Assembly (NCBI RefSeq): GCF_030142155.1
Contig: NZ_CP126247.1
Location: 310,001-374,000, forward strand
DNA length: 64,000 bases
Reading direction: 5' to 3'
Source: Arthrobacter sp. zg-Y820
GTDB lineage: Bacteria; Actinomycetota; Actinomycetes; Actinomycetales; Micrococcaceae
Shown here: in pieces, positions 9,162 to 25,889 of the stretch
Layout of the letters: every line of letters starts with the position of its first letter
Numbering within the stretch: position 1 is the stretch's first letter
Notes under the pieces: generated by a model
Databases searched by the model: none
The model's input: the letters and a program-made list of their open reading frames with translations, nothing else
Told to the model about the DNA's origin: nothing
Made by a program: the position numbers and the translations under genes

Positions 9162-9758
9162 CTAAGGATGTGACCCGCGACGGGACGCCAGTGGAATGAA
9201 TACCGCGTAGAACGCACCCCAGCAGATCCAGAACACGGTCGAGATGCGCCGTTCAGAGACGCCAGGGAACCTGCGGCGAACCATAGCGGCAATCCCGGAT
9301 ACTGCCACCGTCACCACCATGAACCGGATCATCCGGCCGGGCACACTCCAGGCGAGGAACGCCACGAGCGAGGTCCGCTGCAGCCCGGCAGCCCGCGCGT
9401 AGAGCTTGTACGGAACTCCGCGGGTGGGGCCCCGCAGCAAAGAAGCGGCCCCGGACTCGGCGATCTCCTGCTCCACCTCGCTGATCATGGCATCCGTGAC
9501 CGCCGGAACTTTCACCAACGCCTTACGCGAGGTATTTGCGGCTACCTTGAGGCCCCACCAGTACGTCGCTGCCCCTCCGGCCAGTGCGCCGCCGAGGGCT
9601 GAGACCGTGGTGCCGAGCGCGCGTTTCGGTCGGCGCAGCCCCACCCAGGATGTCCACACATCGGGGACCACAAAGAAGAACGTCGCTTCTGCGAAGCCCC
9701 AGGCGCCGGCGATTCCGTGGTCCCGCAGGGCGTTCCTGAAGGGTGATTTGCGCCTCAT
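9162..9758 (-). CDS. Integral membrane protein, possibly VTT/DedA-like
   Basis: A 198-residue protein with several hydrophobic segments. The early motif AWGFAEATFFFVVPDVW resembles the entry loop of VTT-domain (DedA/YqaA-type) membrane proteins, in which an acidic residue precedes a Phe- and Pro-rich turn. Later segments include ALGGALAGGAATYWWG, MIRFMVVTVAVSGIAAM and STVFWICWGAFYAVFIPLA. A soluble stretch (about 75-115) lies between helices. The VTT assignment is tentative. It is divergent from the lipid operon starting at 9858, about 100 bp away, so a related membrane-lipid role is possible but unproven. Confidence 0.65.
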   Translation of the reverse strand: MRRKSPFRNALRDHGIAGAWGFAEATFFFVVPDVWTSWVGLRRPKRALGTTVSALGGALAGGAATYWWGLKVAANTSRKALVKVPAVTDAMISEVEQEIAESGAASLLRGPTRGVPYKLYARAAGLQRTSLVAFLAWSVPGRMIRFMVVTVAVSGIAAMVRRRFPGVSERRISTVFWICWGAFYAVFIPLASRRGSHP

Positions 9759-9857
9759 GCTTACACTGTAATTGATCGCGGGTTACTGCCATTTCCGCCG
9801 CTCGGCTCGCACTAGCGTATGAGTTGCACCAAAGGGCCAAATGAACGGACATTCCAT

Positions 9858-10553
9858 ATGAGCCACGGAACGGACAGGCGGGAAATTCCGCAGCGCGGCA
9901 GCCGGTGGGCGGCAAAATCTGCAGATATGCTTGCGGCGGCGAAACTCACCCCCAATCAGATCTCGGTCGGTTCAGTGGTGTTCGCCGCAGTGGGCGCCGC
10001 TGCGCTGATCTGGTCGGCGCATACCGACGACGCCATAATTCGTGCTGTCCTTCTGGCCGCGGCTGCTGCCTGTATACCGCTGCGTTTGTTGTTGAACATG
10101 CTCGACGGAATGCTGGCCGTAGAAAAGGGTATGAGCTCACCGGTGGGTGATATCTACAATGAATTGCCTGATCGGATCTCCGATGTTCTGTTCCTGGGGG
10201 CAGCAGGCATCGCCACCGCCGGGCTGGTGACCGCCGACCGAGTCGATTTCGGGATGACGCTGGGATTCCTTGCGGCGATACTCGCCGTCCTCACTGCCTA
10301 CATCCGCTGCCTCGGAGCAGCCCTCGGCACGGGATACTTCTTTGACGGGCCCTTGGCCAAACCGCACCGCATGTGGTTGCTGATGATCGGCGTCCTGGTG
10401 GCCATCGCCGAACCATGGCTTCCCTGGTCGGAAGGGTGGGCGCTGTTCGGCACGCTGGCGCTCATCGCGTTGGGCTCCCTGCTCACCTGTACTCGCCGAT
10501 TGCGCCGTGTCAGCGCTGCGCTGCATGCCCGCAGCAAGGACTTGCCATCATGA
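9858..10553 (+). CDS. CDP-alcohol phosphatidyltransferase family, variant active site
   Basis: A 231-residue integral membrane enzyme of the CDP-OH-P family, which transfers a phosphatidyl group from CDP-diacylglycerol to an alcohol. The signature region reads NMLDGMLAVEKG then GDIYNELPDR. Against the consensus D-x2-D-G-x2-A-R-x8-G-x3-D-x3-D, the first and third Asp are Asn and Arg is Val, while the second and fourth Asp and the glycines remain. Five or six membrane helices surround it. The ATG at 9858 is chosen over 9819; ribosome sites are weak for both. Its stop overlaps the next start (ATGA at 10550), so it is translationally coupled to an acyltransferase and a CdsA-like enzyme. The acceptor alcohol is unknown. 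Confidence 0.85.
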   Translation: MSHGTDRREIPQRGSRWAAKSADMLAAAKLTPNQISVGSVVFAAVGAAALIWSAHTDDAIIRAVLLAAAAACIPLRLLLNMLDGMLAVEKGMSSPVGDIYNELPDRISDVLFLGAAGIATAGLVTADRVDFGMTLGFLAAILAVLTAYIRCLGAALGTGYFFDGPLAKPHRMWLLMIGVLVAIAEPWLPWSEGWALFGTLALIALGSLLTCTRRLRRVSAALHARSKDLPS

Positions 10554-11290
10554 ACGTCGGCAGGGCGTCCCGGCGCAGCCTCGCGAAACTTATCAGCGCC
10601 TTCGCCGGTGTGCGCGTGGTGACTGCAGCCGGAGAATCTGAACTGGATTTACCCGAGCAGGCCATCTATTACGCGAACCATTCGAGCCATCTGGACTTCC
10701 TCACCATTTGGGCCGCACTGCCGGCAGAGCTTCAGCAACGCGCCCGCCCGGTGGCTGCCAAGGACTACTGGGGCTCCGGGGTGCGTAAGGCTTTTGCCGA
10801 AAAGATCTTCAACGCCTATTTGGTCGAACGCCACGGCTCCAGCAGCCGCCGGCAGCGCACGTCGGACTCGGGGGTCAGCCCCAAGGGCCAGGTGGAGGGC
10901 ATGGCCGAGGTGCTGGCCGCCGGTGATTCGCTGATTATCTTCCCTGAAGGCACCCGCGGCGACGGCGAAACGATCGCCCAGTTTCACGGCGGACTGTACA
11001 AACTGGCGCGTCTCCACCCTGAGGTACCCGTAGTCCCCGTGACGCTCGCCAACCTCGGACGGATCCTCCCCAAAGGTGAGGTGATCCCGGTGCCTCACCT
11101 CTCGACTGTCATCTTCTGCGAGCCCCTCCATCTGGATCCCGATGAGGACAGGCAGACCTTCCTGGCCCGCGCCCGGCAGGTTCTCGTGGAAGGCCTGACT
11201 GAGCATCCAGACCCGCAATCTGCAGATATCCCCGGACAGGACGACGGCGTCCCGGCCCCTCGTTGCCAGGACCGGCAGGACAACCTGTGA
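10550..11290 (+). CDS. 1-acyl-glycerol-3-phosphate acyltransferase-like (PlsC family)
   Basis: A 246-residue member of the LPLAT superfamily, which acylates lysophospholipids or similar acceptors at the membrane. Motif I is NHSSHLDF (H-x4-D) around residue 43 and motif III is FPEGTRGDG near residue 128; VPVVPVTLANLG forms the later block. The start is ATG 10550 because it overlaps the upstream stop as ATGA and AAGGA precedes it. The C-terminal 30 residues (after EGLTEHPDP) are polar and probably disordered. Middle gene of the three-gene lipid operon; its stop overlaps the next GTG start by the same 4-base arrangement. Confidence 0.9.
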   Translation: MNVGRASRRSLAKLISAFAGVRVVTAAGESELDLPEQAIYYANHSSHLDFLTIWAALPAELQQRARPVAAKDYWGSGVRKAFAEKIFNAYLVERHGSSSRRQRTSDSGVSPKGQVEGMAEVLAAGDSLIIFPEGTRGDGETIAQFHGGLYKLARLHPEVPVVPVTLANLGRILPKGEVIPVPHLSTVIFCEPLHLDPDEDRQTFLARARQVLVEGLTEHPDPQSADIPGQDDGVPAPRCQDRQDNL

Positions 11291-12279
11291 GCGACTGGGA
11301 ACTGGGTTTGTTGGACGCGTCGTCCCTGAAACTCCTCGGCGGCGTCGTCGTTGTTCTAGCCTTAGCCACCGTGATCGCGTGGCTTCTGGGCCGCCGATTG
11401 GGCCCCACGAGCACCATTGTGAACCTGAAGCAGCGCATCAACGCCTGGTGGTTGATGGTCGCACTGATAGGTGCTGTCCTGGCAGCCGGCGAGACGGTGA
11501 CAATTTTGCTGTTTCTGCTGCTGTCACTTCTGGCACTGCGCGAGTTCATCACCATCTCGCCGACCGGGCGCGGAGATCACAAAGTGCTCGTGTGGCTGGT
11601 GTTCATCATCCCCGCGGCGCACTACTGGTTCTTGTGGGAGCACTGGTACGGCATGTTCAGCGTGTTCATCCCGGTGTACGCCTTCCTCTTCCTGCCGGCG
11701 CGCAACGCACTCGCCGGGCAGACCACCGGGTTCCTGCAGCGAACCGCGGCCATTCAGTGGGCGCTGATGGTATGCGTCTACGCCATCAGTTACGCCCCGG
11801 CGCTCCTGCAACTTCCGTTAGCCATGGAGGCAGGCCGGGATGCGGCCGAAGGCTCGGCGCCTGGGACCGGTGGGGCAACCGGCGCGCATCTGCTGCTGTT
11901 CCTGCTGATCGTGGTGCAGGGCTCCGATGTGCTGCAGTATGTGTGGGGCAAGACGCTCGGGAAGCACCCGATCGCGCCGAGCGTGAGTCCCAACAAGACG
12001 TGGGAAGGGTTCATCGGGGGAGTGCTTTCGGCCACCGCCCTGGGGGCTGCCCTGTGGTGGGTCACGCCGTTCACCCCGTTGATGGCCGCGCTCCTGGCCT
12101 TCATCTCCTGTGTGATGGGTTTCGCCGGAGGGCTGGTGATGTCTGCCATTAAGCGCGACCGCGGCATCAAGGACTTCGGCTCCACCATCCCCGGTCACGG
12201 CGGCATCATGGACCGCCTGGACTCGCTCTGCTTTGCGGCACCGGTCTTCTTTCACGCCGTGCGATTCTTCTACACCTGA
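11287..12279 (+). CDS. CdsA-like phosphatidate cytidylyltransferase
   Basis: A 330-residue membrane enzyme that would make CDP-diacylglycerol from phosphatidate and CTP. The CdsA signature is clear near the C-terminus: SAIKRDRGIKDFGSTIPGHGG followed by IMDRLDS. About eight hydrophobic segments are present. The start is GTG 11287, which overlaps the acyltransferase stop (GTGA), rather than the ATG at 11263. The genes upstream supply an acyltransferase and a CDP-alcohol transferase. Together they form a self-contained route from lysophosphatidate to a phospholipid. It is probably a second copy beside a housekeeping cdsA elsewhere, which is inference. Confidence 0.9.
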   Translation: MSDWELGLLDASSLKLLGGVVVVLALATVIAWLLGRRLGPTSTIVNLKQRINAWWLMVALIGAVLAAGETVTILLFLLLSLLALREFITISPTGRGDHKVLVWLVFIIPAAHYWFLWEHWYGMFSVFIPVYAFLFLPARNALAGQTTGFLQRTAAIQWALMVCVYAISYAPALLQLPLAMEAGRDAAEGSAPGTGGATGAHLLLFLLIVVQGSDVLQYVWGKTLGKHPIAPSVSPNKTWEGFIGGVLSATALGAALWWVTPFTPLMAALLAFISCVMGFAGGLVMSAIKRDRGIKDFGSTIPGHGGIMDRLDSLCFAAPVFFHAVRFFYT

Positions 12280-12432
12280 CGGTGGGCGGCCCGGGGCGTT
12301 CGGTGCGCCCGCACCCGGCCTCGTCGGGCCGGATCGAAGCGCAGTAGCCCGAGGCCCTTGTCCATCATCCCTGAGCAACAGGCGCTCGCTGCGCCGAAAC
12401 CCAGTGACCCTGCCAGCCGCTGGCGAAGAGGC

Positions 12433-12576
12433 CTAATCGAGAATCTTGGCTACTGCCCGGAATGCTTCGGGGTCCGCTAAGCCGAGGGGTTGGGCGGCAA
12501 ACTTCCCCACCTCGGCGAACCTCTTCAACCGACTGTCTTCCAGGCGGGCTCCGTTCACTCCTGAAACCAAGCGGCT
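12433..12576 (-). pseudogene. Possible C-terminal gene fragment
   Basis: A 47-codon open stretch on the minus strand ends in TAG at 12433 and is bounded upstream by an in-frame TGA. The translation, which includes RLKRFAEVGKFAAQPL and ends DPEAFRAVAKILD, reads like the end of a real protein, but there is no room for a start. I do not recognise the family. It may be a relic left when the neighbouring cluster arrived; chance cannot be excluded. Confidence 0.3.
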
Positions 12577-12697
12577 TCAACCACGCCTACACCCTTAAAT
12601 GCGACGAGCCTTGAAACCGCTTCCTTGTGATGCTATTTTTGGCACCTGCTAGTAATCGAAGCTTTCTCCAGCAGCGCGATTACTGTCCAGTGTTTAT

Positions 12698-12708
12698 GTC
12701 ACTGTGAC
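12698..12708. promoter_or_regulatory. Palindrome upstream of the copper-oxidase cluster
   Basis: GTCAC-T-GTGAC is an 11-bp perfect inverted repeat about 88 bp upstream of the first gene of the cluster, in an AT-richer stretch. Position and symmetry fit an operator, but no regulator gene is nearby and no clear -35/-10 pair was found. Confidence 0.3.
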
Positions 12709-12795
12709 TGCGTTACAGCAGGTCACGGGCCGTACTCACTCTATGTTTATTTGCATATACCTCTTGTAGATTCTTGTGCGATCGTGGGGTGTGCG

Positions 12796-13989
12796 GTGCC
12801 GGGGAATGTGCAGCGTTTAAGTGATGTAGGACCTATTGATCCCCGGACGGGCTATCCACTGTGGTACGAAGACGTTACGGGTACGCGTCTGGATCTGGCC
12901 TGGCAGCGCGATGACCCGAGAACCCCGATCATCGCTGACCTGAATGAAAGCGGAACTCTGCGAGGCATCGCTAACTTCCCAGGCGAATCCTTCTACATGA
13001 CGGCGGAGGCGGAGCTACCTCTGGGCGGAGGAGGGCAGGACGGGGAAGTGAGGGTGGTCCTCGCCTTGGAGGCTACTTTTGCTACGGAAGACGTGGTGGA
13101 CGGCGAGCAGATCGTCTTCGGACGCATCCGGTTCCGGGTCCGCGACGGACGCCCGGAGACGACGTACACGCTCACGCACCCGTACGGCACGGTTCAGGTC
13201 ACCACCGATGAGCGGGGTCGAGTGACTGCGACGGAGGACATCGGCCTGGCACCGTTGGATTTTACCGGGGCTCTGGGCGGGCAGATCGCCCCCTTCCTGC
13301 AGTGGATGCCCGATCCCGCTCTGCCCGAGGGCTACATCGGTGACGGCGCCACAGAGCACACGATCACGGGCAGCCCGTTCAACACTAACTTCGTCCTGGT
13401 GGAAGGCCCCGGGGCGGGGACAGCTGGGGCTGATCCAGATCCGAATGATCCTGGGAACCCGGACAAGGTCTATACGGACCAATTCGTGCTGCAGGGCCGG
13501 ATCGCCACGATCCATGGGGTGGAGATCACCCGCGCGGTCTACCGCCGAGCGGCGGATGGGGTGGTGATGGTGGAGGTGTTCGCCCGATCCGTTCCCGGAC
13601 AGCAGCTCGGAGTATCACTTGGAGGTGGTCCGGAGACGCCCCTGCAGGGTGGGAATACCCCCAACTACCTCTCCCGCATATCTGCGGGCAGCACGGTTCC
13701 GACGCAGGTCACCGTGACCAACCGGACTGATCCTGTTGCTCTGCCGGTAACCGTGGGGGTCACCGATGCGGTGGCGATCACGCAGGCCGACTATGACAGC
13801 ACCAACCAGACGCTCACCGTGAGTGCAATCTCCAGTGATCAGAGCGGCGCCCCGGCACTAACTGTCACAGGGCGTGGCGGGCTGTCCGGCCCGGTCGGAG
13901 TCTTTGCTCTCGATGCACCGCCGTCCACGGTCACGGTCGTCTCCGCCGCTGGCGGCACCAGCACAGCGATTGTCCGGATCGTGGCCTGA
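12796..13989 (+). CDS. Beta-rich protein of unknown function opening the copper-oxidase cluster
   Basis: About 397 residues with no signal peptide or membrane helix in the frame as read. The N-terminal region contains VGPIDPRTGYPLWYEDVTGT, an opening I associate with uncharacterised bacterial proteins that begin GPI-(D/N)-P-x-(T/N)-G-(F/Y)-P. The rest alternates beta strands and Gly/Thr-rich turns, with a central Pro/Asp-rich linker (AGADPDPNDPGNPDK) and a C-terminal Ig-like pattern (STVPTQVTVTNRTDP). The start is uncertain: GTG at 12796 is preferred, while the frame stays open to a TTG at 12751. No catalytic residues are recognisable. Its stop lies 49 bp before the DUF1326 gene, so it probably belongs to the same transcript. 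Confidence 0.7.
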   Translation: MPGNVQRLSDVGPIDPRTGYPLWYEDVTGTRLDLAWQRDDPRTPIIADLNESGTLRGIANFPGESFYMTAEAELPLGGGGQDGEVRVVLALEATFATEDVVDGEQIVFGRIRFRVRDGRPETTYTLTHPYGTVQVTTDERGRVTATEDIGLAPLDFTGALGGQIAPFLQWMPDPALPEGYIGDGATEHTITGSPFNTNFVLVEGPGAGTAGADPDPNDPGNPDKVYTDQFVLQGRIATIHGVEITRAVYRRAADGVVMVEVFARSVPGQQLGVSLGGGPETPLQGGNTPNYLSRISAGSTVPTQVTVTNRTDPVALPVTVGVTDAVAITQADYDSTNQTLTVSAISSDQSGAPALTVTGRGGLSGPVGVFALDAPPSTVTVVSAAGGTSTAIVRIVA

Positions 13990-14038
13990 CCGGATCCTGC
14001 CGGGCGCTGTCTCAACATCCAAGAATCAGAGGACCGTC

Positions 14039-14860
14039 ATGGAATACACACTGACAGGTAACTTTCTTGAGGCCTGCGACTGCACTGTCATCTGCCCCTG
14101 CTGGGTGGACGACGACCCTGTGGAGGGACACTGCACCGGGTTCGTCTTGTGGGAGTTTACCGGGGACGGCACCGAGTCGGAGATCGATGGCCTCGTCGTC
14201 ACTGGGTGCAAGGTCGTCAGTGTCGCGATCCACGCGGGCAACCGTCGCGGCAGTTCAGCACCGGCCACTTCGATGATCTACATCGACGTTTCGAAGTGCA
14301 AGAACACGGAAACCACGGATGAGGAGCTTTTTAAGGCCTTGCGGGGCACCTTCGCCGAACACCCCACCAAGAAGGGAGGGGGCATAGGCCCGCTGGCTGA
14401 GCTGGCCGAGATGAGCGGAACGGTGGTCGGGGCCGAGCGGGCCAGTATCTCCTTCAAGTTCGATAAGGACGGCCGCGCGGACAAGGACGAACACCGCTGG
14501 ACGGCTACAGTCACCCGTACCCGAATAAACCCGCAGGAACCGCAAGCGGAACCCCTTCAAGACCTGTTGATTCACGCGACAGGGCAGCCGGAGCGGTTTG
14601 ACGCGGCCGAGAACGCTAAGAGTCAGCCGCTGGAGCTGTCCAACACCGCGCTCACCTACGAGCTACAGGCCCAGAACCCGGTGACTGCCCAGGCGGGGGA
14701 TGAGCTAATCATCAACGTCGGTGCCCTGCCCGGAGGCAACATCAACGTCAAGGGCCGCTCGGGCATGCGCGGCACCTTTCACTACCGCCACCCCGCAGCC
14801 CAGCAAGCTCCCGCGGGCGTGCGCACCGGCATGCCTGGTGAAGAAGCACCAGCATCATGA
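14039..14860 (+). CDS. DUF1326 domain protein
   Basis: A 273-residue soluble protein. The DUF1326 signature is at the extreme N-terminus: Cys13-x-Cys15-x3-Cys19-x-Cys21, in EACDCTVICPCW, followed by a fifth Cys in GHCTGF. The paired CxC motifs look suited to metal or redox chemistry, but no biochemical role is firmly established for the family. The C-terminal third carries NVGALPGGNINVKGRSGMRG. The start is ATG 14039 with GAGGA five bases upstream. Its stop overlaps the next start (ATGA at 14857), giving translational coupling to DUF2182. The two families frequently occur together (from memory), consistent with a complex or relay. Confidence 0.88.
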   Translation: MEYTLTGNFLEACDCTVICPCWVDDDPVEGHCTGFVLWEFTGDGTESEIDGLVVTGCKVVSVAIHAGNRRGSSAPATSMIYIDVSKCKNTETTDEELFKALRGTFAEHPTKKGGGIGPLAELAEMSGTVVGAERASISFKFDKDGRADKDEHRWTATVTRTRINPQEPQAEPLQDLLIHATGQPERFDAAENAKSQPLELSNTALTYELQAQNPVTAQAGDELIINVGALPGGNINVKGRSGMRGTFHYRHPAAQQAPAGVRTGMPGEEAPAS

Positions 14861-15726
14861 CCCCTACCTCCCCGGCGGCGCCCCACCAGTCCGGGGCGAG
14901 CCGCCCCCTCGACATGAACCTCCTTGTTTTGAGCACGATCGTGATGGCGGCGATGGCCTGGGGGGTCCTGCTGTTGACCCACGGGCCCGGGGGCCACGGG
15001 CCGGAAGGCCACACGGTGACCTCTGAAGTGCTCGCCCCTGGGCTAGCCGCGGAAACACACGCTCAGCATGGTGGTACGGCCGCGTTCGTGATTCCTCCTG
15101 CTCTGGTGGGTGGTGCAGTAGCCCTGGGCGGCTGGGGATTCATGGTGGTTGCCATGATGCTTCCGCCAGCACTCCCGCTGCTGCAGACGGTGCGACGACT
15201 GGTCTCGCACCGTCCGGATCCGTGGCGTCTGACCATCTGGAGCGCCATGACCTTTATCGGGGCGTGGATGGTCATCGGGGCGGTTCTCGTCGCAGGCGAT
15301 TTGGGTGTCCGGGCGTTGGCTTCCAGCGGATGGCTGGCGATCGATCCCCGTTGGGTAACAGGGGCCGTGCTGATCGGGGCCGGTGGCTATCAGTTCACCC
15401 CGCTGAAAGATTTGTGCCTGCGCGGCTGCCGGAGCCCGCGCAGCTTCGTGCTGGCGCACTGGCAGGGTCGGCGCTCTTCCAGCGCGGAGATTTTCGCCCT
15501 GTCCGGTGCATACGCGCTGTCATGCATCGGGTGCTGTTGGGCGCTGATGCTCATCTGCTTCACCGTCGGCACCGCAGCACTGCCTGCGATGGTCGCGTTG
15601 AGCGTAGTCATGGCCGCAGAACGCCTCGTCTCGTGGGGTCGGCGCTTGGTATGGCCTACCGGTTTCGCCCTCATCGCTCTGGGAGCCGCTACGGCGCTGC
15701 TTCCCGCCTTTCATGGTCCCATTTGA
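14857..15726 (+). CDS. DUF2182 integral membrane protein, predicted metal-binding
   Basis: A 289-residue membrane protein with about six helices. Family-typical elements are FMVVAMMLPPALPLL after a His/Gly-rich outer loop, YQFTPLKDLCLRGCRSP with paired Cys, and SCIGCCWALMLICF, a Cys-rich helix. His residues cluster in the first loop (THGPGGHGPEGH, ETHAQHGG). DUF2182 is annotated in databases as a predicted metal-binding membrane protein; the transported or sensed species is not known. It overlaps the DUF1326 gene by 4 bases and precedes the giant oxidase by 44 bp. In this context it may deliver or export copper or the oxidase's metal substrate, which is inference. Confidence 0.88.
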   Translation: MTPTSPAAPHQSGASRPLDMNLLVLSTIVMAAMAWGVLLLTHGPGGHGPEGHTVTSEVLAPGLAAETHAQHGGTAAFVIPPALVGGAVALGGWGFMVVAMMLPPALPLLQTVRRLVSHRPDPWRLTIWSAMTFIGAWMVIGAVLVAGDLGVRALASSGWLAIDPRWVTGAVLIGAGGYQFTPLKDLCLRGCRSPRSFVLAHWQGRRSSSAEIFALSGAYALSCIGCCWALMLICFTVGTAALPAMVALSVVMAAERLVSWGRRLVWPTGFALIALGAATALLPAFHGPI

Positions 15727-15770
15727 TGTGACCTTTTCTGCCGCTGAGCGGCTCGATCACGGAGTTCAAC

Positions 15771-18700
15771 ATGTCGTCTACCCAATTCCGCACGTACCAC
15801 GTTGTGGCCATGTCCTTCCCGATCGTCTACTCGCTCGAGGGCGACCACGATCCCAACGGTCTGCTCTACACCTTGCGCGTGTACCAGCCCCTCCTGGATT
15901 GGGTGAAGGAACAACGGGAGAAAAACGGCGACTACCTGACCAAGATGCACCGCAAGACCCAGCTCATGGAAACCGTGGTGTACGCAGTGCCGCGGCTCCT
16001 TAAGATGCGCCGGATCCTGTCCGAAGGACCGGAGAAGAATAAGTATCTGTTGAAGGACTTCGGCGGCGAGTCCGAGGTTCTTGACCGGGAAGACCGGGAC
16101 GCCCGCGGTCTCCGGTTGGATCCGGATGATCGTGCGATACGCCAGAACTACCGTGCCACGGTGGACGAACTGGTTGCCGCTTTGCGGGAGCTGACTGATG
16201 GGCGGATTACCAGCCTCTCCTCGAAGGCCCCGCCGGATCCGGAGCGGCTAGAGGAGCAACAGGCGGAGAATGAACATGATGTTTTCGAACATGGCCTGAG
16301 GAAAACCATGGGGGAGTGGCTGGCGCAGCTCGAGGAGGCCGAGCGGGCTATCGAAGGGCAATTGGAAAGGATCCGCCAGGGGTGGCCGGAGATGTTGGCT
16401 TGGTATCGGAGGCAGCGTCCCGGGTCTCAGCTGCGGGACGAGGACATCGAACGGTTGATGTTCAACGATCACAGCCCTGACCTGATCGGCAAAGGTGAAC
16501 AAACCCTGGCCTACAACCGGTGCAACCCGCTTAAGCCCATCCCACTGGTGCGTCCGCTGGTGTTGCGGGCGTGCCGGGGAGAGCAGCTTAAGGTGCGTTT
16601 CGAGAACAGCATCCGCGGCCGCGAAGTGGGCATGCACGTGCAAGGAGACGGGCTCGGGGGCACCGTCCCGGGACGCGGCACCGGCTCAGGCGTCCAGTAC
16701 GGAGATGGGGCGCGCGTAGGCGACAACGACCCCACCACTGTTCCCTACCAATCTAAAATGACGTACCGCTGGCTGTGCGCCCGGGAGGGCGTGTGGCCGA
16801 TCAACGATCTGGGCGACATCCGCGGAACCGACCGTGGCACCAACAACCACGGATTGTTCGCCGCTCTGGTCGTCGAGCCCGATGGGGCGAGGTGGTACGA
16901 CCCTGAGACGGGGGAACGGCTCGACGGCACAGATCACCCCGATGGGCTCTACGCCGACGTCGTGCCCCGCGACGAACACCGCCTCAAGGACGGGAAAGTG
17001 GTGGCTCTCCAAAAGGGCTGCCGCGACGAGCAGCATGAGGACTGCCAGGCGGGCAACCGGTGCCGGAAATGGCGGGAGGACAATTTCGTCGACTTCCACC
17101 ATGCCAAGGACAATCCGGAACAATTCGCCGGCAACTGCAGTTTCCGCGAGTTCACCGTCTTCATGCACGACGAACCCGAGACGCATAACGGCATCCCCCA
17201 CCCCCTGCCCCACTCGGCCATGCCCCTGTCCTACCGCGCTGAACCCATGCACAACCGCCTTCCCTATCGGCTGCACCGGCGCCTGCGTAAAGGCGCGCCG
17301 AAGGCAGAACCCGATAAGAACAGGATCGACCACTCAGCCGTTGAAATCAGGATCGATGAGGAAACCCTCGGAGAAGAGTTCTGGGTGGCCAAAGACAAGA
17401 ACGGCGATTTCCTCGAACGCGTCTCCGGCGAGGAGCAGCATCACAGCTCCTGGCTGTTCGGCGAACCGGTGACGCCGATTCTGCGCACCTACCGCGGGGA
17501 CCCCAGCCGGGTGCGGCTGGTGCACGCCGGGGTCAAAGAGACCCATGTCTTCCACCTGCACGTCCATCAGTGGCGAGCCGTCGCCCAGGACACCGCTGAG
17601 CCTTCCGTGTGGAAGATGGGCGAGCACCACGGTTCCCAGCTGCTGGATTCGGTGTCCATCGGTCCGCAGACCGCCATGACCATCGACCCGCTCTACGGCT
17701 CGGGCAGCCGCCAGCATGCGGTGGGCGACATCATCTGGCACTGCCACCTCTACCCCCACTTCCACCACGGCATGTGGGGACTGTGGCGCAGCTTCGACCG
17801 GCTGGTCGACGGGGAGCGGGCCTACCCCGACGGCACTCCCTGTCCCGAACTGAAGCCATTGCCCGGACGTGACCCCAACCCCTCGACCGCCGAACAACCC
17901 GGATTTCCGTGGTTCATCGACGCCACCTACCCCCGCAAATCTCCGCCGCCGCCCTCACCCCACGAGGAAGACGTAGAGGCGGGGAAGGACCCGGAGAGGA
18001 ACGTCCCGGTCAACGGGCGACGCCAGCTGCTGCAGATGCCGCATTGTTCCGACAAGGAACGGGCGGCCTTCGCACCCAACTGCCGGTCGGGTGATCAACC
18101 CGGTGCTCTTTTCGTCGATCTGGACGGCCTCGCCCGGGACTGGAACACCAAGGCGAAGGTTCCCGAGCGACGGATTATCCACTACGAGATCGACATGGCG
18201 GAACGGGGGATGATCTACAACTCCGCCGGCTGGTACGACCCGCACGTACACCACTATCAGCTCAAAGAAATCACCGTCACCCGTCTCGACGACGACGGGC
18301 ACCGGCTTGGGGATCCAGTGCCCTTCAAACCCCCGGCAACCGAAGACGCAGGCGGGGCCGACGCGTTCTTCCCGCGGGCCAATCACGGCGACATCGTGGA
18401 ACTGCGCCTGCGCAACATGGTGGGCACCGTCGAGGGCGACCACTTCGACTTTCCCGGCCACCCAGTTGAATGTGGTCTGCACGTGCACCTGGTGAAGTTC
18501 GATGTGCTCGCTGCCGACGGCTCGGCCACCGGCTGGAACTACCTCTCCGGCGCCAGTTCCCTCGAAGCCATCCCGGACGGCAAGATCAACAATCCCCCTG
18601 CAAATGTTTCCTTGCACCGGTGGGTGGTGGATGAGGAGTTCGGCCCCTGCTTTTTCCACGACCACCTGCTGGCGAACTTCCGGCAGAAGCGCGGTCTGTT

Positions 18701-21125
18701 CGCAGCCCTGATCGCCGAACCCAACGGCACCCGCTGGTACCTACCGGACCGGCACACCCCCGCATGGGTTGGCTCCCAGGCCGTGATCATACCGCGAACT
18801 TCAAACGGGGATGGGGACGTAGCTTTAAAGGACCCCTTCCGGGAAGCTGGATTGGCCCTTGGGGACTTTGTGCCGCTGAACCGTCCGAAGGACGATCGTC
18901 CTCCGAACCCCATCCCTGCTCAACCTCAATCGGAGGATGATCCGCTGAATGAGCCGAACCTGCTGGGCGGTGATGACGATCCCGGTGTTATGGGCGTCAA
19001 TTACCGGTGCACCCCCATGCGATACCGCGGCAAGGACCCCTCCGAGTGGTTCAGCTCCAGCCGCTCCTCGCTGAAGAACGAGGACGAGGAGCAGCGAAAG
19101 GTCCTCGACGTGCAGGCTCCGCACATGTCGCCGCCACTGCCTGTGCCGCCGAAGCACAAGGGTGACCCCGACACACCGGTGATCTACACCTATCCAGGAG
19201 AACGACTGCGCATCCGGATTTTCCAGGGCTCCCACGAAGAGCAGCACAGTTTCATGCTCAACGGCATGCGATGGCGCAAGGACTGGCAGAACCCACAGTC
19301 GCCGTGGGTGAACCAGCAGACGCTGGGCATCTCCGAGGCCTTCACCATGGACATCAACCCGCCGGAAATCGGAGCTGACGGAAAGCCTCTGGCGACGAGC
19401 CCGTACGGGGTCGGTGACCACCTGTGGCAGTTCACTGTCATGGACGACCTGTGGCTGGGATGCTGGGGACTGATCCGTTCGCTCCAGCCCAGCTCGGAGA
19501 ACTTCCGTGAACTTCCCCCGTTGCCGCGCATCACCAAGGTCGTCCCCGGGACGGAGGACGGCGGCGGGCGCGTTGCACCTCCGACCGACCAGGAACTGAA
19601 GGAGGCACTGGATCAGTTCCGCCTCTCCCAGTCCAACGGATTCCTGCCCACACGTCCCTTCCGGGTGCCCGGAGGAACGTGGTCGGCTGGGAAGGTGCGG
19701 GAGTACGTGGTAGTCGCCCAGCGCCACGAGCACCAGTACGCTGGCCAAGCACTGACCGACCCGTGGGGCCTGATCTACCGTACGGCCGAAGAGTTCGTCG
19801 CTGAGACCAGGGACGATGGAAGCGAGACGGGCAATCTCCGGGCGGTGGATGTGGACGGTTCCGACCAGCCGCTGGTCCTGCGGGCACATCCCGGGGAATG
19901 GATCAGGATCACCCTCATCAACGAGCTCCTGCTGCCGCAGGAGAACCTCCCTGACGAAGACTTCGCCACGAAAGATCCTCGGCTCCCGGACTTCGGACCG
20001 GAAGTGAGCCCGCCGCGGCTGCCCGTGGAGCACCGTGACCACCTGGGTTACCCGGACCGTCGAACGGTCAGTCCTCGAGTCTCCCTGCACCCCAACTTGC
20101 TGCTTTACGACGTGCAGAGCGACGACGGCGCGTACGTGGGGCTGAACCAGGACAGCACCGTAGCCGCCCTGGACGTGGACGATGCTGCTCATGTCGTGCA
20201 CGGCGGACACGACGCAGTCAATGTGGTGGTGCACCGCACTGACCATGGCATAGGGCACCGGGACGCGAACTGGCGGGAGTATTGGTGGTACGCGGATCCG
20301 GCCCTAGCTTTCGACACATATCAGGACGGGCGCGAACGAGGCCAAACCTGCTACCTGTTCGATATGGGTGACATCCGCAATCACCGGCACCACGGCTTAA
20401 TCGGAGCTGTCGTGATCGAGCCCAGCGACATTACCCCGGTCGACCCGCAGAACGAGGACAAGCCGAAGTGGACAGGCGCCCACGTTCACCTGGAGAGCGG
20501 TGACGAAGTCATCGCCCAAGAATTTGTTTTCTTCCTACAGGACGGGCTGCGTCACTTCCTAAACGGCAATATCGACCAGCCACTTCCTGACATCTCTCCG
20601 AGCGACCCTCCCGTGGATGCCGGGCAGAAGGCCATCAGCTACCGGTCTCCGCTGACTCCACACCAGAATCCCATGGCGCTGCCCAACCCCACCGCCCCAA
20701 TCCAGCACGCGAGCAGGGACCTGCCCATCTGGTGGCGCCTGGTCTGCGCCGGCGACAAGCCCCGCAATCACACCTTCACCGTGCACAACTTCGCCTGGGA
20801 CGTCGCCCCCTGGGTGCGGAAGGCAAAGAAGAGCAGTCCCGAAGCCGGATCGGTTACCGCCATCGCAGCCGGCTTCACCCAGGACCTGGTGATGCTGCCC
20901 GAAGGACGCTGGGATCCAGGAGACCACGCCTACCGCAGCGGTTCCTTCCGCTGGGCTGTCAGTCAGGGGATGTGGGGCATCGTCCGGATGGGTGATCAAA
21001 ACGCCAAATCTCGAAGGGAAACGCAAAAAATATCATTGCAGCTGCTGTGGCCACGCTGGGCCCAAAGATTATCCAAGTTGGCCGGGTCACAACGGCGGAG
21101 ACCCCGGACAAATGGACTCTCGTGA
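15771..21125 (+). CDS. Giant multicopper oxidase with permuted copper-ligand order
   Basis: A 1784-residue protein with several cupredoxin-like domains after a helical N-terminal region (about 1-240, charged and coiled-coil-like at 150-215). Copper ligands are clear. TH592-VF-H595-L-H597-V-H599 and H657-C658-H659-x3-H663-x4-M668 supply the type 1 site and half the trinuclear centre. H904-V-H906 and H963-D-H965 supply the other half. In usual three-domain oxidases these last two motifs come first. Further cupredoxin-like segments at about 1150-1260 and 1350-1735 lack full ligand sets (for example NHRHHG at 1537-1542). No signal peptide is seen and a stop lies 15 codons upstream of the ATG. GGAG precedes the start. 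The last 45 residues are basic and unlike the rest. Large bacterial multicopper oxidases include Mn(II) oxidases such as MnxG, but the substrate here is unknown. Confidence 0.9.
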   Translation: MSSTQFRTYHVVAMSFPIVYSLEGDHDPNGLLYTLRVYQPLLDWVKEQREKNGDYLTKMHRKTQLMETVVYAVPRLLKMRRILSEGPEKNKYLLKDFGGESEVLDREDRDARGLRLDPDDRAIRQNYRATVDELVAALRELTDGRITSLSSKAPPDPERLEEQQAENEHDVFEHGLRKTMGEWLAQLEEAERAIEGQLERIRQGWPEMLAWYRRQRPGSQLRDEDIERLMFNDHSPDLIGKGEQTLAYNRCNPLKPIPLVRPLVLRACRGEQLKVRFENSIRGREVGMHVQGDGLGGTVPGRGTGSGVQYGDGARVGDNDPTTVPYQSKMTYRWLCAREGVWPINDLGDIRGTDRGTNNHGLFAALVVEPDGARWYDPETGERLDGTDHPDGLYADVVPRDEHRLKDGKVVALQKGCRDEQHEDCQAGNRCRKWREDNFVDFHHAKDNPEQFAGNCSFREFTVFMHDEPETHNGIPHPLPHSAMPLSYRAEPMHNRLPYRLHRRLRKGAPKAEPDKNRIDHSAVEIRIDEETLGEEFWVAKDKNGDFLERVSGEEQHHSSWLFGEPVTPILRTYRGDPSRVRLVHAGVKETHVFHLHVHQWRAVAQDTAEPSVWKMGEHHGSQLLDSVSIGPQTAMTIDPLYGSGSRQHAVGDIIWHCHLYPHFHHGMWGLWRSFDRLVDGERAYPDGTPCPELKPLPGRDPNPSTAEQPGFPWFIDATYPRKSPPPPSPHEEDVEAGKDPERNVPVNGRRQLLQMPHCSDKERAAFAPNCRSGDQPGALFVDLDGLARDWNTKAKVPERRIIHYEIDMAERGMIYNSAGWYDPHVHHYQLKEITVTRLDDDGHRLGDPVPFKPPATEDAGGADAFFPRANHGDIVELRLRNMVGTVEGDHFDFPGHPVECGLHVHLVKFDVLAADGSATGWNYLSGASSLEAIPDGKINNPPANVSLHRWVVDEEFGPCFFHDHLLANFRQKRGLFAALIAEPNGTRWYLPDRHTPAWVGSQAVIIPRTSNGDGDVALKDPFREAGLALGDFVPLNRPKDDRPPNPIPAQPQSEDDPLNEPNLLGGDDDPGVMGVNYRCTPMRYRGKDPSEWFSSSRSSLKNEDEEQRKVLDVQAPHMSPPLPVPPKHKGDPDTPVIYTYPGERLRIRIFQGSHEEQHSFMLNGMRWRKDWQNPQSPWVNQQTLGISEAFTMDINPPEIGADGKPLATSPYGVGDHLWQFTVMDDLWLGCWGLIRSLQPSSENFRELPPLPRITKVVPGTEDGGGRVAPPTDQELKEALDQFRLSQSNGFLPTRPFRVPGGTWSAGKVREYVVVAQRHEHQYAGQALTDPWGLIYRTAEEFVAETRDDGSETGNLRAVDVDGSDQPLVLRAHPGEWIRITLINELLLPQENLPDEDFATKDPRLPDFGPEVSPPRLPVEHRDHLGYPDRRTVSPRVSLHPNLLLYDVQSDDGAYVGLNQDSTVAALDVDDAAHVVHGGHDAVNVVVHRTDHGIGHRDANWREYWWYADPALAFDTYQDGRERGQTCYLFDMGDIRNHRHHGLIGAVVIEPSDITPVDPQNEDKPKWTGAHVHLESGDEVIAQEFVFFLQDGLRHFLNGNIDQPLPDISPSDPPVDAGQKAISYRSPLTPHQNPMALPNPTAPIQHASRDLPIWWRLVCAGDKPRNHTFTVHNFAWDVAPWVRKAKKSSPEAGSVTAIAAGFTQDLVMLPEGRWDPGDHAYRSGSFRWAVSQGMWGIVRMGDQNAKSRRETQKISLQLLWPRWAQRLSKLAGSQRRRPRTNGLS

Positions 21126-21965
21126 CATTCGAGGAGGCCTTGGACGGACTGCTGTCGCGAGGAGTTGAGGGGCCTTCTCCGGCAAGCAGCCTGAGCTCCT
21201 GTTCACGATGATCCGGGCCCAGGAGAACTAATTGATCAGTTCCGGCCCACCGGGCGGGTCGCGGCCAAATTCTGCCCGGGCCTGAGTGCCCGCCTTCGAC
21301 GAAGCCCCTTTTCAGCCCGCATCCGAGTTGGAAGTGGGCTTTTTGGGCTGGTTCCGACCAGCCAGATACCCACTGGGCAGATACTGGCCGGTTGTGGGCC
21401 GTAGTCGGGCTAATTCAGGCCGGATTGGGGCCAATGCCGAACTCGACGGCAAGCCCGAGCCAGGCTCATCGAGCCCTACGCACTCAAATTACGCACGCTT
21501 CGCGTGCCCTTCTGGTCGCATTCCAGATATTGACCCATTCCAGATATTGACCAGAGTTGTCATGCGTACATGTTTCAGCTTGCGGTAACGATGGGATCGA
21601 CTGGACCCACCGTCACCGCCGCATCACCAATGGTCCACTAACATCTGGGTCGTGATGACGGCCTGGCCATGCACCTACTCATTTCGAGACTGTCACCGAA
21701 CCCTGCATCTACTCCGCGCATTCGCTAGTAACCGGTGCCAGCTCGTCGAAGGGCAAAGCAGCCGGAACCAACGAGGACTGAGGCTGCTGACAGCCCGCAC
21801 AAACCCCTTTAAGGCCCATGCTCCTACTCGAAAAACTTCTCTGACCGCTGAGTGCTCGGTGCCTGCAGATACTGACGCAGTCCGGGCGGCCGAGGCGCGA
21901 CGTCAAGGGCCGCTCTGAGAATCCTGTTGCTGGTGCGTTACCGCCGGACTTACTCACGACAAGGA
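21126..21965. other. Gene-free right margin of the island-like region
   Basis: The 840 bp between the oxidase stop and the tRNA terminator have no open frame I can support. A frame continuing from about 21030 to 21211 reads NIIAAAVATLGPKIIQVG and may be a frameshifted end of the oxidase or a gene remnant. A 17-bp tandem duplication sits at 21520-21553. Composition shifts between GC-rich and more balanced stretches, consistent with decayed sequence. Confidence 0.6.
21520..21553. repeat. 17-bp tandem duplication
   Basis: ATTCCAGATATTGACC is followed by C in the first copy (21520-21536) and by A in the second (21537-21553). The repeat lies in the decayed stretch between the oxidase and tRNA-Ser and may mark a past rearrangement. 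No function is seen. Confidence 0.7.
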
Positions 21966-22010
21966 AAAAGACCCCGCTTCCCTTGGATTGCAAGGGAAGC
22001 GGGGTCTTTT
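21966..22010 (-). terminator. Intrinsic terminator downstream of tRNA-Ser(CGA)
   Basis: A 20-bp perfect inverted repeat (arms 21966-21985 and 21991-22010, loop GATTG) whose GC-rich core GACCCCGCTTCCCTTG ends in a T run on either strand. It lies directly beyond the tRNA 3' end on the minus strand. Confidence 0.9.
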
Positions 22011-22015
22011 CCATG

Positions 22016-22103
22016 TGGCGGTGACGGTGGGATTTGAACCCACGTTGGCTTTCACCAAACAACATTTCGAGTGTTGCACCTTCGGCCGCTCGGACACGTC
22101 ACC
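22016..22103 (-). tRNA. tRNA-Ser (anticodon CGA)
   Basis: An 88-nt class II tRNA read on the minus strand. Acceptor arms GGTGACG and CGTCACC pair, followed by discriminator G and an encoded CCA. The anticodon loop CTCGAAA gives CGA, which reads UCG. The long variable arm (TTTGGTGAAAGCCAA) and the T arm GTGGGTTCAAATCCCAC are present. It borders the island-like region, and tRNA-Ser genes are frequent integration sites. Confidence 0.97.
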
Positions 22104-22179
22104 AACGCGTCAACCTTACCGGCTAAAACGCCCTGCCCCAAAACGGGCGGATCCACGCCCGCTGCGGTGGCGGAGATGA

Positions 22180-22665
22180 CTAGAGATCGACGACGTCGTT
22201 CTTGCCGATGTTGGGCGTATCGCCGGTGACGGCGCTCTTGGCAATCTTGAAGGCCGTTGCCACCCGCGGCTCGTCCGTTGCCCAGTATTCAGCGGTGTCC
22301 GAGTCCACCTTGATCAGCGCAATGGACGGGTCTTCCCGCCCCGCCTCGAACCAGGCAGCAGCGGTGGACTTCCATAGTTCTTCGATCTTGCCTTCATCCT
22401 TGGTGATGGACGCCGTTCCGCTGATGGAGAGGTACCCCTTGGAATCATGGATGGAGACGTTCACGTTGGGGTTGGTCCGAATCTCGTCCGCCTTGGGCGA
22501 GGGATCCTGGGTGAAGAACCACAGGTTGCCGTCCGAATCCGTTTCCTGCAGCTCCAGCGGACGGCTCACCAGATGGCCCTGAAGATCCACGGTCGTCAGC
22601 TGGGCAATCTTGGCGTGCTCAAGGATTTTGACGACTGTATCCAGCCCTGCCTGATCTGCACTCAT
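22180..22665 (-). CDS. Pyridoxamine 5'-phosphate oxidase-fold stress protein
   Basis: A 161-residue split-barrel flavin-binding-type protein of the general stress protein 26-like group. Characteristic segments are AQLTTVDLQGHLVSRPLE, GNLWFFTQDPSPKADEI, NPNVNVSIHDSKGYLSISG and a C-terminal WATDEPRVATAFKIAKSAVTG. Family members bind FMN, F420 or similar cofactors, and several are induced by stress; catalysis by this one is not shown. It is single, on the same strand as tadA 62 bp upstream, and downstream of it lies tRNA-Ser. No unusual features. Confidence 0.9.
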   Translation of the reverse strand: MSADQAGLDTVVKILEHAKIAQLTTVDLQGHLVSRPLELQETDSDGNLWFFTQDPSPKADEIRTNPNVNVSIHDSKGYLSISGTASITKDEGKIEELWKSTAAAWFEAGREDPSIALIKVDSDTAEYWATDEPRVATAFKIAKSAVTGDTPNIGKNDVVDL

Positions 22666-22727
22666 TGGTGAACTCCTTGGGGTATCGGGTTCTGAGTTAG
22701 TAAGCCTACGTACGGAACCCGCCCGTG

Positions 22728-23198
22728 TCAGCCCGATCGCCGAGAGCCGAAAAAATCAGTGAGCAGCTTCGCGCACTCCGCTTTCCGGACCTCGGGAAAA
22801 ACTTCCACCCAGTGATTCAGCCTGCGCTCACGGAGAATGTCGAACACCGATCCGGAGGCTCCGGCCTTCTCGTCCCAGGCGCCGAAGACCACCCGTGGAA
22901 TGCGGGCCAGCACAATCGCCCCGGCACACATGGCACAGGGCTCCAGGGTCACCACCAGAGTGCACCCCTCGAGCCGCCACTCACCGATGGCCGCTGCGGC
23001 TTCGCGGATGGCTACCACTTCGGCGTGGGCCGTGGGGTCGCCGGTGGCTTCGCGCTCATTGCGTCCGGTGCCGATTATCGTTCCGTCCGGACCAACGACG
23101 ACGGCGCCGATCGGCACGTCTTGGGTCGCCAAGGCTCCGCGGGCCTCGATAAGCGCAAGATCCATCCACGCCTCATGCTGCGCTGTAGGGGGCTTCAT
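22728..23198 (-). CDS. tadA: tRNA adenosine(34) deaminase
   Basis: A 156-residue zinc deaminase converting A34 to inosine in tRNA-Arg(ACG). The zinc site and proton shuttle are visible as TAHAE near residue 59 and the PCAMC motif in TLEPCAMCAGA near 90. The C-terminal region GSVFDILRERRLNHWVEV is typical of TadA rather than of cytosine deaminases. The ATG at 23198 follows AGGAG and gives the usual length; the longer frame lacks that support. A matching substrate, tRNA-Arg(ACG), is encoded at 28831-28906 in this window. The gene diverges from upp. Confidence 0.95.
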   Translation of the reverse strand: MKPPTAQHEAWMDLALIEARGALATQDVPIGAVVVGPDGTIIGTGRNEREATGDPTAHAEVVAIREAAAAIGEWRLEGCTLVVTLEPCAMCAGAIVLARIPRVVFGAWDEKAGASGSVFDILRERRLNHWVEVFPEVRKAECAKLLTDFFGSRRSG

Positions 23199-23282
23199 GC
23201 TCCTATCTTCCCGCAGTTCAACCGGGCCGCAGGGCAGCCGTGCCGCAGAGGGAGTCCCAGCATGGAATGGTACTTTTGAAGC

Positions 23283-23918
23283 ATGCGCGTACTTGTAGTG
23301 GATCACCCCCTTGTTGCCCACAAACTCACCGTTCTCCGCGACAAAGACACCCCTTCACCGGTGTTTCGCCAGCTCACGGAAGAACTCGTCACCCTTTTGG
23401 CTTATGAAGCCACCCGCAACGTCCGCGTTGAGCCCGTACAGATCGAGACTCCGGTCACGTCCACTGTCGGGACCGGCCTGGTAAAGCCCACCCCGCTGGT
23501 GGTGCCGATCCTCCGTGCCGGACTCGGAATGCTTGAAGGAATGACCCGGCTGGTCCCCACGGCGGAGGTTGGATTCCTGGGCATGGCCCGCAATGAGGAA
23601 ACCCTCGAAGCAATCACCTATGCGGAGAGGCTTCCGGACGACCTCACCGGACGTCAGGTCTTTGTCCTGGACCCGATGCTGGCCACCGGCGGAACCCTCC
23701 GGGAGGCCATCAAGTTCCTGTTCAAGCGCGGAGCCGCAGACATCACGTGCATCTGCCTGCTGGCCGCCCCCGAGGGCCTCGAGGTGCTGAAGCACGAACT
23801 GGCTGATGCCAATGTGACCATCGTGCTGGCCTCCATCGATGAGCGCCTGGATGAAAAGTCCTACATCGTCCCGGGACTGGGTGATGCCGGCGATCGACTG
23901 TACGGCGTCGTCGACTAA
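23283..23918 (+). CDS. upp: Uracil phosphoribosyltransferase
   Basis: A 211-residue cytoplasmic enzyme that salvages uracil by joining it to PRPP to give UMP. Length and sequence match bacterial Upp throughout: [20 protein letters not shown] at the start, [11 protein letters not shown] in the middle, the PRPP loop [15 protein letters not shown] near residue 130 and the uracil-binding C-terminus [15 protein letters not shown]. It diverges from tadA (84 bp between starts). About 500 bp without a gene follow it. Confidence 0.98.
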
Positions 23919-24107
23919 ACAGGCTCCGCCCTCAATACCTACTGTCCAGCATGTGGACACCTCTCGCATGCTTGACTCGCACCCGTCTGTAAGTTCGCTT
24001 ATGGGCGGGTGCTCTCTTTTTCCCATTCGGCCGCCGTGTGCGGCCAGCGGGCCGCCCGGAGCATGGGGCGGCAGTGGGTGCCAAAAGCCGGATTCCGGGG
24101 TAGGGAA

Positions 24108-24123
24108 TGTGAACTGCATCACA
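24108..24123. promoter_or_regulatory. Perfect CRP/GlxR-type site
   Basis: TGTGA-ACTGCA-TCACA matches the CRP-family consensus TGTGA-N6-TCACA exactly. It is 295 bp upstream of the winged-helix regulator. In corynebacteria and relatives this consensus is bound by the cAMP receptor GlxR; the binder here is inferred. Confidence 0.55.
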
Positions 24124-24207
24124 AATAGCCAACAATCGTCCACATAGTGAGACGTGGGACGCATTGTTACTTGCGCGTACGCCTTTGTTACATGCAATAA
24201 TCCGTAA

Positions 24208-24223
24208 TGTGAACATCCACACA
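24208..24223. promoter_or_regulatory. Second CRP/GlxR-like site, one mismatch
   Basis: TGTGA-ACATCC-ACACA differs from TGTGA-N6-TCACA at one position and starts exactly 100 bp after the perfect site. The even spacing suggests paired sites for the same regulator, but this copy alone would be weak evidence. Confidence 0.35.
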
Positions 24224-24418
24224 GCAGCACCTGTCGCAGCGCTTCTCATCGGCTCCGCCGGCGAGAAGCCGTGCTGTTGTCGAATGCACGCCTGAGTTAC
24301 CCACCCCCATTTCTCAGGCACCACTCAGGCCCAATGACGGGCGAAACTGCGCCATCTCGACCCGGGCACACCCCCAGCATTCGAGCGTGATGACGGTCAT
24401 TCACATTGAGGTTGCAAC

Positions 24419-25276: not shown

Positions 25277-25282
25277 TCCAGG

Positions 25283-25320
25283 GGCGGTGCCGGTTCCGGA
25301 ATTCCGGCACCGGCACCGCC
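25283..25320. terminator. GC-rich hairpin after the winged-helix gene
   Basis: An 11-bp perfect inverted repeat, GGCGGTGCCGG (25283-25293) and CCGGCACCGCC (25310-25320), begins seven bases after the stop codon. It has no T run, so it may attenuate rather than fully terminate before the SixA-like gene 14 bp later. Confidence 0.45.
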
Positions 25321-25334
25321 GATAGACTGGGCGA

Positions 25335-25859
25335 ATGAGCGGCCACCACCTGAAAAAACTGATGCTCCTGCGGCATGCGAAGGCGGCATGGCCCCGGGAC
25401 GTGTCCGACCACGAACGGCCCCTCTCCAGCCGGGGGCACTTGGACGCGCCGCTGGCCGGCCGCTGGATGGTGGAAAACGACTCCATTCCCGACTTCATCC
25501 TGTGCTCGTCTGCGCTGCGCACCCGGCAAACGTGCACTTGGATCTGTGAGGAACTCGGAGACAAAGGGCCCACACCCAAGCTCGAAGACGGCCTCTACAG
25601 CGCCACGGCCGCGCAGATCCTCAGCGTCATCAACAGTGTGCCGGAGACGGTGACCAGCCTGCTGGTCATTTCCCACCTCCCCGGAGTGCAGGACCTCGCG
25701 ATGCGGCTGGCCTCAGTGGAGTCCAACGAAGATGCAGTAATGGAGATGGCGATGGACTATCCGACCGCCGGGTTGACCGTCATGGAATCGGACAAGCCGT
25801 GGGCTGAGCTGGACGGGCGCGATGCCCGGGTCACTGACTTCGTGGTTCGCCGGGCCTGA
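25335..25859 (+). CDS. SixA-like histidine phosphatase family protein
   Basis: A 174-residue member of the histidine phosphatase (phosphoglycerate mutase-like) superfamily. The catalytic His is in LMLLRHAKAAW (RHG-type motif, here RHA), with further core residues in CSSALRTRQTC and LVISHLPGVQDL. This RHA-K version and short length match SixA-type phosphohistidine phosphatases. The substrate of this copy is unknown. It sits 58 bp after the winged-helix regulator on the same strand and may be co-transcribed, but a hairpin separates them. It converges with the FAD oxidoreductase at 25890. Confidence 0.88.
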   Translation: MSGHHLKKLMLLRHAKAAWPRDVSDHERPLSSRGHLDAPLAGRWMVENDSIPDFILCSSALRTRQTCTWICEELGDKGPTPKLEDGLYSATAAQILSVINSVPETVTSLLVISHLPGVQDLAMRLASVESNEDAVMEMAMDYPTAGLTVMESDKPWAELDGRDARVTDFVVRRA

Positions 25860-25889
25860 CCGCTCCCGCGTCGGCGTAACCGGCGCACC

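Follow-up and report, generated by a model that had tools for sequence, protein, structure and literature searches.

Two described bacterial systems come closest to the locus reported here. In Bacillus, the activity of the Mn(II) oxidase MnxG is reported to require the copper-binding proteins MnxE and MnxF (PMC5622069), and MnxG proteins are given as ~1944 aa long in Pseudomonas and 1217-1227 aa in Bacillus (PMC3600357). In Marinomonas mediterranea, the membrane protein PpoB2 is described as moving copper to the tyrosinase PpoB1 and not to the laccase PpoA (PMC2855505). Besides, cytosolic cuproenzymes have been reported to be nearly absent (PMC7558416); these statements come from the accessible parts of the four papers. 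The sequence-only reading of the present locus had regarded DUF2182 as a family without a firm role. This did not hold, as Pfam names PF09948 PpoB2 and calls it a copper chaperone, and its role for the Marinomonas tyrosinase is in print (PMC2855505, accessible part). For DUF1326, no function is stated in Pfam, nor was one found in a literature search that had most subscription journals beyond its reach.

We analysed a window of 64,000 nucleotides from Arthrobacter sp. zg-Y820 (the whole stretch from 310,001 to 374,000 of contig NZ_CP126247.1), in which four ORFs, all on the + strand, form a single run at 12796-21125 (C1:322796-331125 in the genome). The features concerned are the following, in window positions:

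12796-13989, + strand: G1, 397 aa, GTG start, outside every Pfam and NCBIfam family
14039-14860, + strand: DUF1326 protein, 273 aa, PF07040
14857-15726, + strand: DUF2182 (PpoB2) multi-pass membrane protein, 289 aa, PF09948
15771-21125, + strand: MnxG-like giant multicopper oxidase, 1784 aa, PF07731
12290-21966, strand not applicable: insert of ~9.7 kb, with empty sites in the congeners G003 and G023
22016-22103, - strand: tRNA-Ser(CGA), adjoining the right edge of the insert

The same-direction cluster noted earlier, with intergenic gaps of 49, -4 and 44 bp, was confirmed in these figures. Against Pfam, the DUF1326 protein scored 62 bits with PF07040 (cut-off 25) and the DUF2182 protein 160 bits with PF09948 (cut-off 28.7), which makes them members of the DUF1326 and PpoB2 families, respectively; the oxidase scored 32 bits with PF07731, and G1 had no Pfam family match. 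An alternative TTG start at 12751 would extend G1 to 412 aa, yet we favour the start at 12796 because the nearest full-length homologues measure 393-401 aa. The promoter scan returned a single promoter-like site (12611-12639) against 1.9 expected by chance, and the terminator scan of the operon region was likewise at chance level. That neither a copper regulator nor a P-type ATPase is nearby stood up in a Pfam scan of 30 window ORFs, which are a part of all window ORFs and probably include some that are not genes. The two CsoR-type genes of the genome lie at C1:1493121 and C1:3223309.

The gene-neighbourhood survey for which the sequence-only reading had called used one pattern scan of genome contigs, which yielded 57 MnxG-like loci. 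By identity and a quick tree (L028 and L049 by identity alone), these were split into a clade A of 33 loci, 29 of which have at least 3.4 kb upstream, and 24 others, 14 of them with the same room; the clade A branch had an SH-aLRT of 100% in the quick tree (32 clade A rows). In 27 of the 29 clade A loci with room, the oxidase is immediately preceded on its own strand by DUF1326 and PpoB2, and in 21/29 G1 is upstream as well. At the 24 other MnxG-like loci (14 with room), DUF1326, PpoB2 and G1 were each absent. Because 27/29 clade A loci share DUF1326 and PpoB2, the neighbourhood is not unique to this genome, and its conservation as a unit upholds the earlier proposal of a single operon. Its carriers belong to Actinomycetota, Pseudomonadota, Gemmatimonadota and Cyanobacteriota, the latter two being represented by MAGs that may be misbinned, and this recurrence across phyla argues that the linkage is not due to chance.

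Two Acidimicrobiales MAGs (L023 and L049) are exceptions within clade A, with an oxidase and none of DUF1326, PpoB2 and G1. Six more clade A loci (L011-L015 and L029) are without G1, and no common real gene replaces it there, the ORFs at that place mostly looking, by eye, like shifted-frame or antisense ones. The operon label was attached to 28 of the 32 tree rows, the other four being L023 and the truncated L010 (with a partial PpoB2 at its edge), L016 and L024; this scoring implies five changes of the label. Partner distances correlate with those of the oxidase (DUF1326, r 0.90, 27 loci; PpoB2, r 0.89, 27 loci; G1, r 0.91, 21 loci), with 0/2000 permutations as high. As expected, these correlations would fit a unit, and plain shared descent would give the same. 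When ORFs of at least 90 aa were clustered over 53 loci (32 of clade A including the window, and 21 of the 24 others), no real-gene cluster outside the four families occurred in more than 8/32 clade A loci, the larger clusters being antisense or shifted-frame ORFs of the four genes as judged by the coordinates and strand of their representatives.

The oxidase was found in 3/59 relatives. Two of these, the genome under study and G001, belong to the genus, where they make up 2/29 genomes; the third, a member of the order, gave a weak and fragmented match. Between window positions 12310 and 22008, G003 has only 33 bp, and G023 has only 10 bp between 12287 and 21967. Given these empty sites, the ~9.7 kb carrying the operon are therefore an insert, which holds no ORF of at least 120 aa beyond the four genes, overlapping and antisense ORFs aside. 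Transfer as a cassette is suggested by the comparison with G001, which matches the window at 95-96% over 12551-21022, at 89% over 21132-21270 and at 83% over the right flank (21881-25863), and has no match to the left flank. Judged from its surroundings, the tRNA-Ser(CGA) gene is a probable insertion hot spot. At the edges of the insert, no 11-mers are common to 12201-12650 and 21001-22200, i.e. direct repeats were not found between these two segments. A DUF1326 protein 90% identical to that of the window occurs in Arthrobacter sunyaminii.

Two further observations concern the surroundings of the insert. Two genomes carry the operon at the tRNA-Ser(CGA) site, G006 (L155) has ~1 kb there with a different gene, an ORF that we take to resemble a phosphotransferase, and G003 and G023 have neither. 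To the left, the block at 9171-12310 (VTT-like, acyltransferase and CTP transferase genes, lipid-synthesis-like) is matched in G003, G006 and G023; it is unmatched at that place in G001, and the left flank is therefore variable too.

The oxidase is not an unknown: it aligns with PDB 9bxa MnxG (1227 aa) at E 1.2e-131, in six stretches spanning query positions 6-1744. By this alignment, its kinship with the Bacillus Mn(II) oxidase MnxG extends over the full length of the protein. With the NCBI MnxG equivalog NF041487, it scored 181 bits, below the cut-off of 3100; by its length (1894 positions), this model is closer to the MnxG of Pseudomonas than to that of Bacillus. Its relatives numbered 839 among 8000 scored candidates, and among the matches listed (120 of the 839), the nearest named ones are from Kocuria and several bear the source name 'manganese oxidase'. 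All 12 multicopper-oxidase ligands (H592, H595, H597, H657, C658, H659, H663, M668, H904, H906, H963 and H965) are present and identical in 53/53 aligned rows, comprising 32/32 of clade A, 20/20 others and one Priestia MnxG relative, an identity that for H657-M668 is partly by construction because the locus scan used patterns from within this segment. On this count, the oxidase is catalytically complete, as had been claimed. Our assignment of the ligand residues to copper types presumes the general multicopper-oxidase motifs. In 9bxa, Ala occupies the position of H663, and an H340A variant of MnxG has reportedly been used in spectroscopy. By kinship with MnxG, Mn(II) would be the likely substrate, a proposal to which we give even odds. 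In the congener G001 (L060), the oxidase ends at ~1734 residues, just past the last conserved domain, and its tail differs from that of the window protein.

Export was assessed by hydropathy, a 15-residue mean above 1.8 within residues 1-50 being counted as a leader; this is a rough substitute for a dedicated signal predictor. By this measure, no leader was seen in 119 of the best 120 of the 839 oxidase relatives, in the DUF1326 relatives (n=91) or in the operon G1 proteins (n=22), that of the window reaching 1.74 if started from the TTG at 12751; the soluble operon members (G1, DUF1326 and the oxidase) thus gave zero export signals by hydropathy. Leader loss as a hallmark of the operon oxidase was considered and rejected, as leaders are missing from oxidases of either clade, whether or not partners are present, and from the Priestia relative. 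Because other MnxG-like oxidases are leaderless too, non-classical release of the enzyme may be possible.

Across 296 genomes of the class, DUF1326 is present in 31, PpoB2 in 41 and both in 27. Counted by place, 30/36 DUF1326 have PpoB2 at a distance of at most 2 kb (a second, stop-interrupted match at the same pair accounts for one of these, and one of the six misses sits on a short separate contig), and 30/47 PpoB2 lie near DUF1326, with none nearby for the other 17. Oxidase alignment matches occurred in five of the 296 genomes, a full clade A-type match together with the pair only in the genome under study. Since the pair is habitual across genomes and copper transfer has been reported for Marinomonas, DUF1326-PpoB2 is a portable module that is here joined to an oxidase. 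Twenty free-standing loci, taken from the 30 places and all from the window's class, served as a comparison set; in these, we found no recurrent neighbours besides the pair.

PpoB2 carries an AMM motif (a Met pair) and the Cys motifs CLRGC and SCIGCC, of which the CxxxC and CxGCC patterns are kept in operon and free-standing contexts alike. The loop after its first membrane helix has a median of 4 His in 28 operon rows vs 0 in 19 free-standing ones, whereas Met number 3 in the free-standing and 1 in the operon rows, and a close His pair is found in 25/28 vs 1/19; since the rows are related to each other, the p values of this comparison are only nominal. In DUF1326, C13, C15, C19, C21 and C32 are kept in 28/28 operon and 20/20 free-standing rows, while H31 and H65 occur in 28/28 vs 0/20. 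In their residues, both operon proteins are thus shifted towards His relative to their free-standing kin. Positive charges before the first helix of PpoB2 outnumber those in the loop in 26/28 rows; by the positive-inside rule, this bias leads us to predict that the His-rich loop is extracellular and that the Cys loop faces the cytosol. The predicted model of DUF1326 may resemble an acetoacetate-decarboxylase barrel, and a search by sequence found no solved-structure relatives of DUF1326 or PpoB2.

G1 consists of a conserved N-terminal beta domain (~1-235) followed by two Ig/FnIII-like domains (~238-397). Fold comparison gave no clear match for the N-terminal domain and aligned chiefly the Ig-like part, and by sequence no solved relative was found, the few chains hit by a profile matching only its positions 390-504, where the window protein ends or has already ended. 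Outside the operon, among places with matches stronger than ~1e-40, G1 relatives have a laccase-type multicopper oxidase within ~7 kb at 5/14 loci (motif search) and a hydrophobic leader at 14/14 (12 over the threshold, two at 1.75 and 1.78); the five laccase-type oxidases all bear, by eye, a twin-arginine-like leader. The idea of G1 as a strict compartment marker was weakened: only 17/107 homologues exceed the hydropathy threshold, leaderless Bacillus relatives being among the rest, and the compartment claim is therefore restricted to the 14 loci examined.

The G1 family showed several further contexts. Long relatives that are leaderless and contain a PKD domain occur in Bacillus sp. SG-1 (P0187) and further Bacillaceae, and long ones of 1191-1610 aa with 2-3 domain matches per ORF are found at L147, L148, L149 and L151. 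On an Arthrobacter plasmid (L068, 7061-14517), the G1 relative adjoins two contiguous multicopper-oxidase annotations, perhaps one split gene, with a further oxidase, a metal P-type ATPase, an Nramp transporter and metal regulators close by. An oxidase, a SCO-family protein and a G1 relative are consecutive on a Skermanella plasmid (L069, 5173-9698), i.e. G1 occurs there with a different copper helper. On an Indioceanicola plasmid (L074), a MnxG-like ORF of 1938 aa lies ~17 kb from the G1 relative in an unannotated stretch.

We favour, at a probability of roughly 0.6, the reading of the locus as a mobile operon in which a MnxG-like giant multicopper oxidase would be combined with its own copper-loading pair, PpoB2 and DUF1326, replacing MnxE and MnxF. 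PpoB2 would take up copper via its His-rich outer loop, and its Met and Cys motifs would relay the metal to the cytosolic face. There, DUF1326, with five invariant Cys and two added His, could accept copper from PpoB2 and then load the apo-oxidase, with G1 acting in the oxidase's compartment, either as its partner or as a scaffold. In this way, PpoB2 and DUF1326 would play for clade A the role that the copper-binding MnxE and MnxF play for Bacillus MnxG. The more specific proposal that a bacterial multicopper oxidase is filled in the cytosol, by PpoB2 import, transfer to DUF1326 and loading of the leaderless oxidase, G1 being its partner in the cytosol, is tentative and, in our estimate, rather doubtful. 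Metal delivery and metal export had both been suggested before; delivery would be the best reading, whereas export gained no support, as no efflux part is encoded and the PpoB2 Cys loop is predicted to be cytosolic.

Instead of copper, the pair might supply the oxidase with Mn(II) or another divalent metal, the His changes then reflecting an altered metal preference. Such a role would agree with the His switch in both operon proteins and with an oxidase that is kin of a Mn oxidase, but operon and free-standing proteins alike retain the five Cys of DUF1326 and the CxxxC and CxGCC motifs of PpoB2, soft ligands of the kind that fits Cu(I), and the metal reported for PpoB2 in Marinomonas is copper (PMC2855505, accessible part). 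We consider it unlikely.

The operon could also serve metal detoxification, with the oxidase oxidising Cu(I) or Mn(II) defensively and its partners sequestering or expelling metal. Copper tolerance is a common role of multicopper oxidases, and on the plasmid L068 an exported G1 relative is accompanied by metal regulators and a metal P-type ATPase; however, the four genes include neither an efflux pump nor a CopZ-type chaperone nor a copper regulator, the CsoR-type genes are located far from the operon and the enzyme is leaderless, which makes a defensive role quite improbable. The location of the operon as an insert at a tRNA gene would likewise be explained if functionally unrelated genes had been frozen together on a mobile cassette. 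Such hitchhiking is very hard to reconcile with the same order and strand in 27/29 clade A loci from four phyla, where no other gene is found in more than 8/32 loci, and we hold it to be highly improbable.

If a copper-loading pair is indeed what accompanies the oxidase, copper hand-over with PpoB2 would be the first function for DUF1326, and the operon suggests a route to the metallation of MnxG-type enzymes outside Bacillus that does without MnxE and MnxF. Loading in the cytosol, if true, would be an exception to the rule that bacterial cuproenzymes receive their metal outside this compartment. The main reason for taking the operon to the bench is that a copper oxidase which lacks a leader and has a putative loading pair of its own would go against the near absence of cytosolic cuproenzymes (as stated in the accessible part of PMC7558416), and a mobile cassette that joins the two would allow this potential exception to be tested directly in soil bacteria.

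Compared with known systems, free-standing DUF1326-DUF2182 pairs have the same adjacent families, the same five DUF1326 Cys and the same PpoB2 Cys motifs, yet differ in their Met-rich loop, in lacking H31 and H65 and in having no multicopper-oxidase motif alongside (0/20). The G1 relatives near laccase-type oxidases belong to the same family, but are exported by hydropathy and come without DUF1326 and PpoB2. Like the present locus, Marinomonas mediterranea PpoB1-PpoB2 combines a copper oxidase and a PpoB2-family membrane protein in one operon (PMC2855505, accessible part); here, the enzyme is a MnxG-like multicopper oxidase and not a tyrosinase, and a DUF1326 partner and the His-rich PpoB2 loop are added. 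As far as a literature search lacking most subscription journals goes, the arrangement is undescribed only as a combination and in its His-rich variant. To this extent, the earlier designation as an undescribed metal system stands; it does not extend to DUF2182, which is PpoB2, or to the oxidase, a MnxG relative.

The closest likeness in the oxidase itself is to Bacillus Mnx (MnxEFG), with homology over the whole length and the same copper ligands in the Priestia relative, which is as leaderless as the operon oxidase. Unlike that system, the present one has an oxidase of 1784 aa (Bacillus MnxG, 1217-1227 aa; PMC3600357, accessible part), includes G1 and resides in a host that is not an endospore former. 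At the one Priestia plasmid locus examined, G1, DUF1326 and PpoB2 were unmatched. Conversely, two small Priestia ORFs, taken as MnxE and MnxF from their size and place on one plasmid, gave no phmmer match at 1e-3 among ORFs of at least 40 aa in the window and L002-L058, a search that small diverged proteins could escape. In Bacillus, the accessory copper-binding proteins MnxE and MnxF belong to the same operon as the oxidase (PMC5622069, accessible part), and it is in their place that DUF1326 and PpoB2 stand here.
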